From Alkalimarinus coralli (lineage in GTDB: Bacteria > Pseudomonadota > Gammaproteobacteria > Pseudomonadales > Oleiphilaceae), in NCBI RefSeq assembly GCF_023650515.1, contig NZ_CP096016.1:2730001-2794000 (forward strand): DNA of 64,000 nt, read 5' to 3'. Every line of letters begins with the position of its first letter. Position 1 is the first letter of the stretch. This document shows positions 3,679 to 63,940 of the stretch, in pieces. The notes under the pieces were generated by a model. It did no database searches. It had not been told where the DNA came from and saw nothing but the letters and a program-made list of their open reading frames with translations. Made by a program: the position numbers and the translations under genes.

Positions 3679-4401
3679 ATGCTTGAACAACTAAATCACT
3701 TACTGGCTCAGAACGAAATATTTAATCCGACCACGCTGGCTCATTACTGGGGTGGTTTCGTTATCACTGTTCAATTGGTATTCTTTGCCCTGGTACTGGG
3801 GGCAATTCTTGCACTACCGTTAGGCATACTGCGAACATCCAGCAACCCTTGGATCAGCAAACCTATCTGGCTTTATGTTTACATCTTTCGTGGCACACCA
3901 CTTATCGTCCAACTCTTTCTTATTTACTACGGCACCTCTCAAATTGACAGCATCAAGGGCACCTGGCTTTGGGATAATGTGCTAAGTGAAGCATTTTACC
4001 CTTGCCTAATCGCCTTTGTGCTAAACACCGCAGCCTATACAACCGAGATTATCCGGGGCGCAATCGAGAATACTCCCAAGGGAGAGATTGAAGCAGCTAA
4101 AGCCTATGGTATGTCCTGGACAGTAAGTATGCGGCGAGTAATACTGCCCAGTGCATTTCGCCGCGCTTTACCTGCGTACGCCAATGAAGTGATATTTATG
4201 CTACACGCCAGTGCAATTGCCAGCGTTGTCACAATTGTCGATCTCACGGGTGCCGCACGAGATATTTATTCTCGTTATTATGCGCCTTTTGATGCGTTTT
4301 TATTTGTTGCGGCCATCTACTTATGCATCACATTTGCATTAATATTCGGTTTTCGCCATCTTGAAAGTAAACTGTTAGCACACTTAAAGCCACTGTCATG
4401 A
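3679..4401 (+). CDS. aotM: Arginine/ornithine ABC transporter permease AotM
   Basis: A 240-residue inner-membrane permease of the HisM/ArtM type. It has the FRGTPLIVQLFLIYYG segment near 73-88 and the EAA loop AAKAYGMSWTVSMRRVILP. It follows aotQ by 3 nt. Its TGA overlaps an ATG (ATGA, 4398-4401) that belongs to the first unit of a 25-bp triplication leading into astE. The ancestral layout was therefore probably a coupled aotM/astE junction. Family sure; substrate from context. Confidence 0.91.
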   Translation: MLEQLNHLLAQNEIFNPTTLAHYWGGFVITVQLVFFALVLGAILALPLGILRTSSNPWISKPIWLYVYIFRGTPLIVQLFLIYYGTSQIDSIKGTWLWDNVLSEAFYPCLIAFVLNTAAYTTEIIRGAIENTPKGEIEAAKAYGMSWTVSMRRVILPSAFRRALPAYANEVIFMLHASAIASVVTIVDLTGAARDIYSRYYAPFDAFLFVAAIYLCITFALIFGFRHLESKLLAHLKPLS

Positions 4402-4470
4402 CAGACATAGAAAAGAGCGGTCATGGCAGACATAGAAAAGAGCGATCATGACAGACATAGAAAAGAGCGC
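4396..4470 (+). repeat. Three tandem 25-bp units spanning the aotM stop and astE start
   Basis: Three near-identical 25-bp units begin at 4396, 4421 and 4446. Each contains TCATGACAGACATAGAAAAG followed by AGCG and one variable base. The only other difference is one A/G change in unit 2. Every unit carries an ATG followed by codons for T-D-I-E-K-S (G for T/D context in unit 2). Only the third ATG, at 4448, is in frame with AstE. The first overlaps the aotM stop. The AAAAGAG in each unit acts as a Shine-Dalgarno-like stretch for the next ATG. Confidence 0.95.
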
Positions 4471-12269: not shown

Positions 12270-12341
12270 AGGTGCAACTAGGTTTTCAAGGTGCAAATAG
12301 GTTTAAAGGTACAGTTAGGTTTAAAGATACAATTAGGTTTT
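12270..12341. repeat. Four degenerate 18-bp tandem units at the chemoreceptor stop
   Basis: Units of the form AGGTGCAACTAGGTTTT begin at about 12270, 12289, 12307 and 12325 (spacings 19, 18, 18). The last contains the TAA stop of the chemoreceptor remnant. On the minus strand the units read roughly TTTAAACCTAACTGTACC, so the array looks like repeated duplication of the last codons and stop (FKT-stop). Confidence 0.8.
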
Positions 12342-48298: not shown

Positions 48299-48677
48299 AG
48301 GTAATGAGAAGCCCTAAGTCTACAGAAAGAGCGATATCACCAAACCGGTTAACAGTTTTTTACATAATTTTAGCGCTGAAAAGTTAAAGTAATGCAATAA
48401 TATTAAAAGCTTAAAAAGTAAAACAATGAAAAATATTACCTATTTGGGATAAATATCAGACCATCAACCAGTTTTTACTGACACTTGTTAAATCTCTGCT
48501 ATTCTTTCCGGTAGGTGCTTGTATTCTATAGGCTTGCGTTCTATGAGTACTTGCGTTCTATAGATAGTTGCAAAGCAGCTTAATTTTAGCGTCAACGACT
48601 TCTTCCCCTGCCTAGAGTGTTATGACTCTCTGAGGGGTTGTGCTGTGTATTTTGTATGATAAATATGGTGTTCCTTA
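48299..48677. other. Intergenic region with short degenerate repeats
   Basis: A 379-bp AT-rich gap upstream of the PilZ-like gene. It holds three repeats of CTTGCGTTCTATAG type at 48518, 48533 and 48550, spaced 15 and 17 bp. No gene or terminator is clear. The repeats could be regulatory sites or the result of local duplication. Confidence 0.55.
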
Positions 48678-60506: not shown

Positions 60507-61538
60507 CTACCACTTAGCGTAGTGATCCTCCATAAAGCCTGGGATATTATCCAGCTCTACTTTCTCGCCCTTGGCATCAATCATCCAACCACTAAAGTGG
60601 CCAAACATCTGTTTAAAGTTAGACGCGAGAATAATCGCATCAATCTTTTCCTCACGCTTTCCAAGAGGCTGAAAAGTCAGTTCCAGTAGTCCATCCGTTG
60701 TTTTAACTCGCCACTGTTTTTCCGGCTGATAACGATCAAACTCAAAAACAGCCATATTAAGCTTGGTCAAAACCCCATCAATCCATAAGCAGTTTTCAGT
60801 AACGCCTGTTTCATTAACGCCGGCAGCAAGGTTAAGCCCTACCCGCCGACCATCTTTCAATAAACCTGAAAAACACGCCCAGTTCCAGGCGGTTTCTCTG
60901 CGCATGAAACCGCAACTCCAGTCTGTACTTGCTGATGAACGCTGAGATGTCAGCACGTAGCTACGTCCATTCAATTCAATACTTCCTTCAGCTGCGAGTC
61001 CCGCTGTTTTTTGAGTGAAAACCCAGCCGTTATAGCCTGCTTTTGAACAAATTCTCAATGGTGAGAAATCTGCGGGCTGAAAAACCGTTACATCCATTGA
61101 AACATCGCACCCCAGGCTAACGTTCAAATACCGCTCACTTCCGTCTGCATTGGTGGTTATTTCAACACTATCTCCGAACTGCTTAAAACGACTGTGGCCA
61201 GTATCAGGCTTTTCTTCAATGTTAGTAGCCACTGCCAGAGGCTGCAGCAAGCTCTTTTCAAATAACTCGCCTGTTTTTAGGTCATAAACATAAACAAATA
61301 CATTGCTAATCAGCTTTAGATCAACAATCGCGATGCCAGCGATAATCTCTTCGTTCATTAACCCAACAAACTGAAACTGATTAAACGCCATTCGCTTACG
61401 GATACCTTTCACAGGTTTATCCATCGGTGTGCGAAAATCAAAGTCTTGATAGTTCACCTCAGATACAGGCTGTGATATTTCGCCAAATACCGGGCTCGCG
61501 TTATCCTGCACCAATTTCATACTTTCAAGCTCTTTCAT
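60507..61538 (-). CDS. DUF2804 family protein
   Basis: A protein of about 343 residues with the DUF2804 pattern: FNQFQFVGLMNEEIIAGIAIVDLKL, FVYVYDLKTGELFEKSLL, SCGFMRRETAWNWACFSG and VGLNLAAGVNETGVTEN. It seems cytosolic, with no signal peptide or membrane span. Function of the family is unknown; some members are predicted to act on lipids or sugars. The frame opens with GTG at 61553, and ATG at 61538 has AGAAGG upstream and is preferred. Divergent from a START-domain gene across a 21-bp repeat array. Confidence 0.8.
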   Translation of the reverse strand: MKELESMKLVQDNASPVFGEISQPVSEVNYQDFDFRTPMDKPVKGIRKRMAFNQFQFVGLMNEEIIAGIAIVDLKLISNVFVYVYDLKTGELFEKSLLQPLAVATNIEEKPDTGHSRFKQFGDSVEITTNADGSERYLNVSLGCDVSMDVTVFQPADFSPLRICSKAGYNGWVFTQKTAGLAAEGSIELNGRSYVLTSQRSSASTDWSCGFMRRETAWNWACFSGLLKDGRRVGLNLAAGVNETGVTENCLWIDGVLTKLNMAVFEFDRYQPEKQWRVKTTDGLLELTFQPLGKREEKIDAIILASNFKQMFGHFSGWMIDAKGEKVELDNIPGFMEDHYAKW

Positions 61539-61716
61539 ACGCCTTCTCTTCACTAAATCATGCTCATTTCAATTTAACTGCTCATCACGCGCCCGGAACA
61601 CCCTGTTTATTCGCACATTTTTACCAAAATGTATATGAATTATCATTTATAAACACAGACCAATGTTAGAATTCACCGGCTATCTATCTGTTAAATGGCT
61701 AAAAAGTGTCACATTT

Positions 61717-61842
61717 AACTGATATCGTGCTTTTATTAACGGATATAGTACTTTTACTAACTGATATAGTACTTTTATTAAAAAGGTATAGTACTTTCTT
61801 AAATCGATGTCGCGTTTTCTTTAATCGTCATCGTATTTTCAG
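61717..61842. repeat. Six-unit 21-bp tandem array between divergent genes
   Basis: Six adjoining units begin at 61717, 61738, 61759, 61780, 61801 and 61822, all exactly 21 bp. The best-conserved units read AACTGATATAGTACTTTTATT; units 1-4 differ at few positions and units 5-6 more. Each unit holds a TATAGTAC or related core. A 21-bp period equals two DNA turns, so the sites face one side of the helix. The array lies about 100-225 bp upstream of the START-domain gene. Confidence 0.9.
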
Positions 61843-61941
61843 AAAAAAACATACAGGCGCATTTTATATTCTAATTAGAGCTTTTATACTAAAAGCAGCT
61901 GTAAATGCCAAACCTAATTTCTTTACTAAAAAAGTTTAACT

Positions 61942-62655
61942 ATGACTCGCTCTTTTTTATCACTTGTTTCAGCTCTATTAATAACAACACTATTTTCTGC
62001 ACACGCAATCTCCGAAGAAATTCCAATGGATGCGCCTGACTGGGAAAAACAAACCGAAGAGGGGGATATTGTTATTTTCACCCGCCCTCACCCAGGCTCA
62101 AGCTTTAAGGCGTTTAAAGCAGTCACCGTGATTGATGCACCTCTTAGTAATGTCATGGCCGTAATGGCCAACCCCCTCTCATGTATGGAGTGGGTATTAG
62201 GCTGCACCGTCGCCAACTCATTTGATGAAACAAGTTTTAATGATCGTTACGCATACTCGGTCAACGATATGCCCTGGCCATTCAAAGACCGGGACTATGT
62301 GCTGCACATCAAAACAACCAGCGATCCGGCAAGCGGCAAAATTTTGATGCACATGAACGCAGCCAAAAACAAAAAAGAAATAAACGACGAGCTGGAGAGG
62401 GTCGACGTTGCACAAACGGTTTATACATTTGAAGCACTCAAAGAAAACAAAACAAAAATGGTCTGGCTGCAGCACACAGAACCTGGTGGAGTCTTGCCCG
62501 GCTGGCTGGTCAACTCCCTGATCGTTGATATCCCCGTCAAGTCACTTCAGCAGCTGGAAAAAGTTGCACAACAACCCAAGTATCAAGACGCGAATATTCT
62601 GTTTGACCAGCAAGGCATAATTAACGGTGTTGACTCCAAATTAACACGCCAGTAG
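61942..62655 (+). CDS. Secreted START/polyketide-cyclase-like lipid-binding protein
   Basis: A 237-residue protein with a signal peptide (about 1-24, SFLSLVSALLITTLFSAHAIS) and a START domain (about 30-225). Conserved START features are DWEKQTEEGDIVIFTRP, DAPLSNVMAVMANPLSCMEW and DRYAYSVNDMPWPFKDRDYV. Probably periplasmic, perhaps carrying lipids or sterol-like compounds. Such secreted START proteins occur in several marine and soil gammaproteobacteria. Neighbouring array may regulate it. Exact ligand unknown. Confidence 0.85.
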   Translation: MTRSFLSLVSALLITTLFSAHAISEEIPMDAPDWEKQTEEGDIVIFTRPHPGSSFKAFKAVTVIDAPLSNVMAVMANPLSCMEWVLGCTVANSFDETSFNDRYAYSVNDMPWPFKDRDYVLHIKTTSDPASGKILMHMNAAKNKKEINDELERVDVAQTVYTFEALKENKTKMVWLQHTEPGGVLPGWLVNSLIVDIPVKSLQQLEKVAQQPKYQDANILFDQQGIINGVDSKLTRQ

Positions 62656-62740: not shown

Positions 62741-63205
62741 ATGACTCTTGTCGCGCGCGACATAATGACCCCCCATGTAAAATCCGTCCCTCAATCATGG
62801 ACCATGCAAAAATTCGCTAAATTCTTGTCAGATAACGAGATTAGCGGAAGCCCCGTGATTGATGATGAGGGTGAAGTAATCGGCATTGCCACGCTTAAGG
62901 ATATCGCAGATTTTCATTTGAATAACGTTTCAAGTGAACACGAAAAGAAGATGACCGACGAAGAGCTGAAAGAAGCTCGTCGCCTAAGGCAGTTTATTTT
63001 TGAAGAGATGATAAAAGTCCCCGTCGAGGTGCGCGACATCATGACGCCGATTGTATTCTCTGTGGAAGAAGATGCACCAATACCTGAAATCGCAGAAATA
63101 ATGATGGACGAACACCTGCACCGAATATTCGTTATTCATGCAGGTGAGGTCACCGGAATTATCACAACCTACGATCTGTTGAAAATAATCGCTGACGCTC
63201 AATAG
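62741..63205 (+). CDS. CBS-pair domain protein
   Basis: A 154-residue cytoplasmic protein of two CBS motifs (about 5-60 and 95-152): RDIMTPHVKSVPQSWTM with SGSPVIDDEGEVIGIATLKD, and RDIMTPIVFSVEEDAPI with GIITTYDLLKII. CBS pairs bind adenine nucleotides. No catalytic domain is fused. It lies 85 bp after the START gene and 66 bp before the TetR gene. Confidence 0.9.
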   Translation: MTLVARDIMTPHVKSVPQSWTMQKFAKFLSDNEISGSPVIDDEGEVIGIATLKDIADFHLNNVSSEHEKKMTDEELKEARRLRQFIFEEMIKVPVEVRDIMTPIVFSVEEDAPIPEIAEIMMDEHLHRIFVIHAGEVTGIITTYDLLKIIADAQ

Positions 63206-63271: not shown

Positions 63272-63940
63272 GTGAGATGCTTGACCCAACGACTCAGAGC
63301 CATTGACGACAACGAAAAAGCGGCTAGGCGGCAATCTATTTTAGACGCAGCAAAAGCACTGTATCTTGCCAATACAAGCGGCTTACCTTCAGTCATCAGT
63401 ATTGCCCGCAAGGCAGGACTTGCCAAAGGAACCGTCTATCTCTACTTCAAAACCAAGGAAGAGATATTCCTGGCGATGCTATCAGAAGATTATGAAACAC
63501 TGATGGTCGAAGTGATTAAACTGCTTGATGCTCCTGCATCCCCTGACGAATTAGTAGAGCAACTACTGAGCACACTGATTAACTTTCTTGATAACAACCC
63601 TCTATTCATGCCATTAGCCAGCATGGCAAGTCCGGTACTTGAGCAGAATGTCGATATCGAAATCGTGGGCGAATTCAAGCTTATGTTGATAGACAAGATC
63701 GACTTGATTGATGAGCTATTTATCAAAGCCTTTCCACAATTTCCAAAAGGCCAATGCGGGAGCCTGCTACTTCATACCAACGCCCTTATTTTAGGGTTAT
63801 GGCAGATGCAAAACTGGCCGGAGAAACTAAAACCATTGCAACAGCAGTACCCGTTCAATACGGTAATACCTGACTTCAAGAAAGACCTGGCGCTATCGTT
63901 AAAAAACCTCTGGAAAGGCGCACTCAGTAACCAAGCGTAA
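63272..63940 (+). CDS. TetR-family transcriptional regulator
   Basis: A 222-residue repressor-type protein. The N-terminal helix-turn-helix (about 15-62) contains SILDAAKALYLAN and IARKAGLAKGTVYLYFKTKEEIF, the TetR signature. The C-terminal domain is helical and ligand-binding, unrelated to a named subgroup by eye. The start is a GTG at 63272; a TTG at 63281 is an alternative. It may regulate genes nearby, such as the CBS or START genes, but there is no direct evidence. Confidence 0.9.
   Translation: MRCLTQRLRAIDDNEKAARRQSILDAAKALYLANTSGLPSVISIARKAGLAKGTVYLYFKTKEEIFLAMLSEDYETLMVEVIKLLDAPASPDELVEQLLSTLINFLDNNPLFMPLASMASPVLEQNVDIEIVGEFKLMLIDKIDLIDELFIKAFPQFPKGQCGSLLLHTNALILGLWQMQNWPEKLKPLQQQYPFNTVIPDFKKDLALSLKNLWKGALSNQA

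Follow-up and report, generated by a model that had tools for sequence, protein, structure and literature searches.

The locus and its neighbours

In Alkalimarinus coralli, the divergent genes of a DUF2804 protein and a START-domain protein are separated by a region with six short head-to-tail units, which raises the question of whether these units form an operator array or a repeat that spread by duplication. The initial annotation had put forward both readings. The source genome is a single 4.83-Mb contig, and the window, that is the whole stretch of 64,000 nucleotides that was analysed, holds the following genes around the array:

60507..61553, minus strand: DUF2804 protein gene (PF10974)
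61942..62655, plus strand: START-domain protein gene (PF01852)
62741..63205, plus strand: gene of a protein with two CBS domains, syntenic in the genus
63272..63940, plus strand: TetR regulator gene (TetR_N + TetR_C_34), 82-90% identical in three congeners without the array

The neighbours were found as first described, with DUF2804 on the minus strand, START on the plus strand, and then the CBS pair and TetR. The units had been called iterons, a name that in its replication sense does not fit the array, since the adjoining genes are not replication genes; the four neighbours scanned include neither a Rep gene nor an AraC gene. Homologues of the START protein are widespread across the family. 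A second START-domain homologue of the source genome (G000:C1:2300836-2301513, minus strand) is 35% identical, with one in-frame TAA reported in the matched stretch, and the congeners carry one at similar identity that is free of stops.

Structure of the array

The intergenic region contains one tandem array and three other elements to which the argument refers:

61615..61648, no strand assigned: left genus-conserved block ACATTTTTACCAAAATGTATATGAATTATCATTT, made of an 18-bp palindrome ACATTTTnnnnAAAATGT at 61615-61632 followed by TATATGAATTATCATTT
61664..61672, plus strand: extended -10-like motif TGTTAGAAT, after the left block
61717..61843, plus strand: tandem array, six units of 21 bp (one of 22), consensus AACTGATATAGTACTTTTATT
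61863..61890, plus strand: second promoter-like site, TTTATA-16-TATACT, a consensus match only, inside the right conserved block

The array had been presented as six units of exactly 21 bp at 61717-61842. The position and the number of units hold, and the exact length does not: the cores start at 61721, 61742, 61763, 61785, 61806 and 61827, with spacings of 21, 21, 22, 21 and 21, and the extra base is an insertion in unit 4. The gradient of divergence claimed from left to right also holds in part. Mismatches against the consensus do rise rightward (2, 2, 0, 6, 9 and 9 of 21 positions in units 1-6), with unit 3, and not unit 1, closest to the consensus. TRF takes the first four units only (61715-61797, period 21, 3.9 copies, 83% matches); units 5-6 fall under its threshold and nonetheless keep the register. 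Identity is 0.66 at a lag of 21 bp and 0.55 at a lag of 42, compared with about 0.3 elsewhere. In 2000 dinucleotide-shuffled versions of the intergenic region, the periodicity score never rose above 2.31, while the real sequence scores 3.85, so that head-to-tail repetition above chance, in the unit range of about 10-60 bp that defines minisatellites, is an observed property of this DNA.

Read from the sequence, T tracts recur in helical phase every 21 bp. A conserved dyad was sought in the units and none was found, and no RNA family was found either. Eight columns are invariant across the units where 5.3 are expected (p = 0.035, post hoc, the comparison having been chosen after looking), which hints weakly at a kept core and speaks against a minisatellite. 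A further counter-point to that reading is that the spacing stays at 21-22 bp despite drift to 9 mismatches of 21.

Comparison with congeners

The comparison set consisted of four congeners, one genome per species, two of which are listed in GTDB as an uncultured Oleiphilaceae bacterium and a Hahellaceae bacterium; a scan of genome contigs found only two relatives, both among these congeners. The gene order DUF2804/START/CBS is kept in all four. The TetR gene was found in three, and in the fourth the flank covered ends too early to reach its position. The intergenic regions of the congeners align with that of the source genome in two blocks, left and right, and the array lies between these blocks in the source genome only. 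It is absent from 4/4 congeners, all of which have both flanking genes and both blocks wholly or in part; its presence is therefore lineage-specific at an otherwise conserved locus. Such absence from close relatives had been named in the initial annotation as evidence against an operator. In the congener regions, even a low threshold brought up no tandem repeats, and nothing matched the array unit significantly, the best candidate for an ancestral single unit having p = 0.06. Upstream of 28 other START homologues, no array of the unit AACTGATATAGTACTTTTATT was seen (0/28).

In four of the five genus members the left block is nearly identical and has a single copy per genome, always at the DUF2804/START locus; the fifth has it in diverged form. 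Its palindrome has also been given as ACATTTTTACCAAAATGT, again with TATATGAATTATCATTT. The palindrome block at 61615-61648 is likely to serve DUF2804 and START as an operator or promoter element, and regulation in this intergenic region more likely acts through the palindrome, about 100 bp left of the array, than through the array. The motif TGTTAGAAT at 61664, a possible promoter of START, resembles the TGCTAGnnT that precedes START homologues of other genera; if this promoter is used, the array falls within the START mRNA leader. The right block takes up about the last 80 bases ahead of the START codon. The promoter-like site inside it (61863..61890), whose -35 is poor, begins about 20 bp after the end of the array; its TATACT is kept in three of the five genus members, and the site as a whole does not exceed shuffle expectation.

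The unit elsewhere in the genome and other intergenic arrays

A genome search for single units had been proposed in the initial annotation, with a lack of other copies of the core to be held against an operator. No other place in the genome has two cores side by side, and the only match to the core outside the array with at most one mismatch lies in A+T-rich DNA (L052) and looks like chance. With up to 3 mismatches, the 14-mer core has 245 + 264 genome matches, against 400 + 368 for a reversed-pattern control. The core is thus not enriched, which was counted as a lack of other copies, and with neither a further array nor an excess of single cores, a regulon sharing the core as a common signal is not visible. 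At 48524-48563 of the window, 2.5 copies of a 16-17-bp unit TTCTATAGTACTTGCG have a consensus that shares TATAGTACTT with the DUF2804/START array, probably by coincidence.

Arrays of other units are common in this genome. TRF was applied to 400 kb of the source genome taken evenly (G000, L057-L076) plus the window, and to a congener sample (L077-L096). The source genome gave 15 non-coding arrays in 400 kb, or 26 per 100 kb of non-coding DNA, against one array in its shuffled intergenic DNA; this and the following rates are rough, because counts are small and every open frame of 100 codons or more was excluded from non-coding DNA. Per 100 kb of non-coding DNA, the congeners G001 and G002 had 37 and 17 arrays, the larger family members G013 and G032 had 27 and 11, and G050 had 11, while 150 kb of E. 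coli K-12 had no intergenic array. Periods in the source genome are mostly 14-22 bp, each array with its own, unrelated unit, and across the genus they are mostly 13-25 bp with mutually unrelated units. A period of 21 bp falls within this ordinary range and is therefore weak evidence for helical phasing. The array rate per 10 kb of intergenic DNA was 1.4 between divergent, 3.9 between tandem and 5.4 between convergent genes (2 to 13 counts per class, a tendency only), the lowest rate between divergent genes being as expected if growth is tolerated mainly outside promoters.

Three other arrays of the source genome (window 12270, window 4395 and L069:18365-18603) had no TRF array at the orthologous congener loci. 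The first (12270-12340) has 3.9 copies of an 18-bp unit AGGTACAATTAGGTTTAA, in a gap between flanking matches of about 167 bases, against about 59 in G001. The second (4395-4469) has three copies of a 25-bp unit GTCATGACAGACATAGAAAAGAGCG with 94% matches. The third is long, also intergenic, and repeats a 16-bp unit (9.6 copies with 92% matches) after a weaker 4.2-copy array of 16 bp; it is absent from all four congeners, and the gap between its flanking matches is 360 bases in the source genome against about 54-110 in the congeners. The abundance of unrelated intergenic minisatellites in the genus may merit separate study.

Proposed origin of the array

Taken together, these data suggest that the array is most probably a lineage-specific intergenic minisatellite that arose when spacer or leader DNA was duplicated in tandem. 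The slippage origin proposed in the initial annotation is favoured because the array is private to the source genome and belongs to a large class of intergenic arrays whose units are unrelated. A stretch of about 21 bp of poorly conserved spacer between the two conserved promoter-side blocks would have been duplicated head to tail, by replication slippage, as we infer, or by unequal recombination, and the copies would then have diverged, those on the START side most. Since no ancestral single unit could be demonstrated in a congener, a start of the duplication in this spacer is proposed rather than observed. Growth of the array would have left the conserved elements intact and made the spacer longer, or the mRNA leader of START in case transcription begins at the 61664 promoter, and the array is probably tolerated rather than selected.

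Alternative readings

The other reading first offered, a regulator-binding array, gained no support: there is no conserved dyad, no second array and no enrichment of the core, and the gene pair is kept in congeners without the array. One version of it is a cooperative operator of a direct-repeat-binding activator of the AraC/XylS type, recruited in the source species and driving START from 61863-61890. Such an activator is unlikely. It is still considered because XylS half sites recur at 21 bp and the column conservation of the array units, though weak, is slightly above chance; the direct repeats lie about 21 bp apart, two helical turns and the half-site spacing at Pm, and end shortly before a promoter-like site whose -35 is poor. 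Against it, the site is not conserved upstream of START in relatives that have the DUF2804/START pair, none of the four neighbours is an AraC gene, the genome has no second site, and the period lies inside the 13-25 bp range of the unrelated genus arrays. It is very unlikely that a recent tandem expansion turned one direct-repeat activator site into a six-site cooperative operator with new control of START in the source species; were it so, START, a lipid-binding protein, would be newly controlled there. TetR proteins bind dyads. For the TetR protein, the regulator first suggested, the argument in favour is proximity, its gene lying 1.4 kb from the array; that it binds the array is extremely improbable, because the units lack a dyad and the regulator is conserved, together with both target genes, where the array is absent. 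Neither a dyad-symmetric site nor co-conservation with the regulator was found for the array, and the genus-conserved palindrome lies outside it.

The remaining alternatives need no regulator. The array might act through DNA shape, with T tracts every 21 bp bending the DNA, or through a longer leader that alters START translation. The helical phase of the tracts and the candidate promoter at 61664, which would place the array in the leader, agree with this; RNA folding is not clearly better than in shuffles (z -0.85 for the array, z -1.68 for the whole leader), neither array nor leader length is conserved, and such an effect is distinctly unlikely. It is exceedingly doubtful that the array is translated as part of a leader peptide, with TDIVLLL as a seven-codon repeat in a frame that begins at GTG 61706 and stops immediately ahead of START. 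This frame stays open over 77 codons and the unit length of 21 is divisible by 3, but the insertion in unit 4 breaks the register of the peptide repeat, the congeners lack the array, and the GTG start has no clear ribosome-binding site. The minisatellite reading carries a wider lesson: an array may sit in a divergent promoter region with helical spacing and still be a repeat private to one species, and congeners help to tell it apart from the conserved palindrome nearby, which is the better operator candidate.

Comparison with known systems

The literature searched offered general work on tandem repeats, none of it on the DUF2804/START locus. At Pm, the half sites of XylS are 15-bp direct repeats with 6 bp between them and so recur at 21 bp (PMC5481539). 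The array resembles them in having non-palindromic sites that recur at 21 bp upstream of a promoter-like site, and differs in its six units, against two at Pm, and in lacking both an AraC gene among its neighbours and conservation in relatives. Tandem repeats also lie in the promoters of phase-variable genes, such as nadA of Neisseria and hifA/hifB of Haemophilus (PMC3899988). These share with the array a place in the regulatory region, in the case of hifA/hifB also between divergent genes, but their units are short, identical and prone to slippage, whereas the array units, except perhaps units 1-3, are too diverged for frequent slippage. The small variable segments of bacterial genomes include short head-to-tail non-coding repeats (PMC2884548). 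Like the minisatellite proposed here, bacterial intergenic minisatellites or VNTR loci are short head-to-tail units in non-coding DNA that are specific to a species or strain, and the array differs from typical typing VNTRs in the greater divergence of its units.
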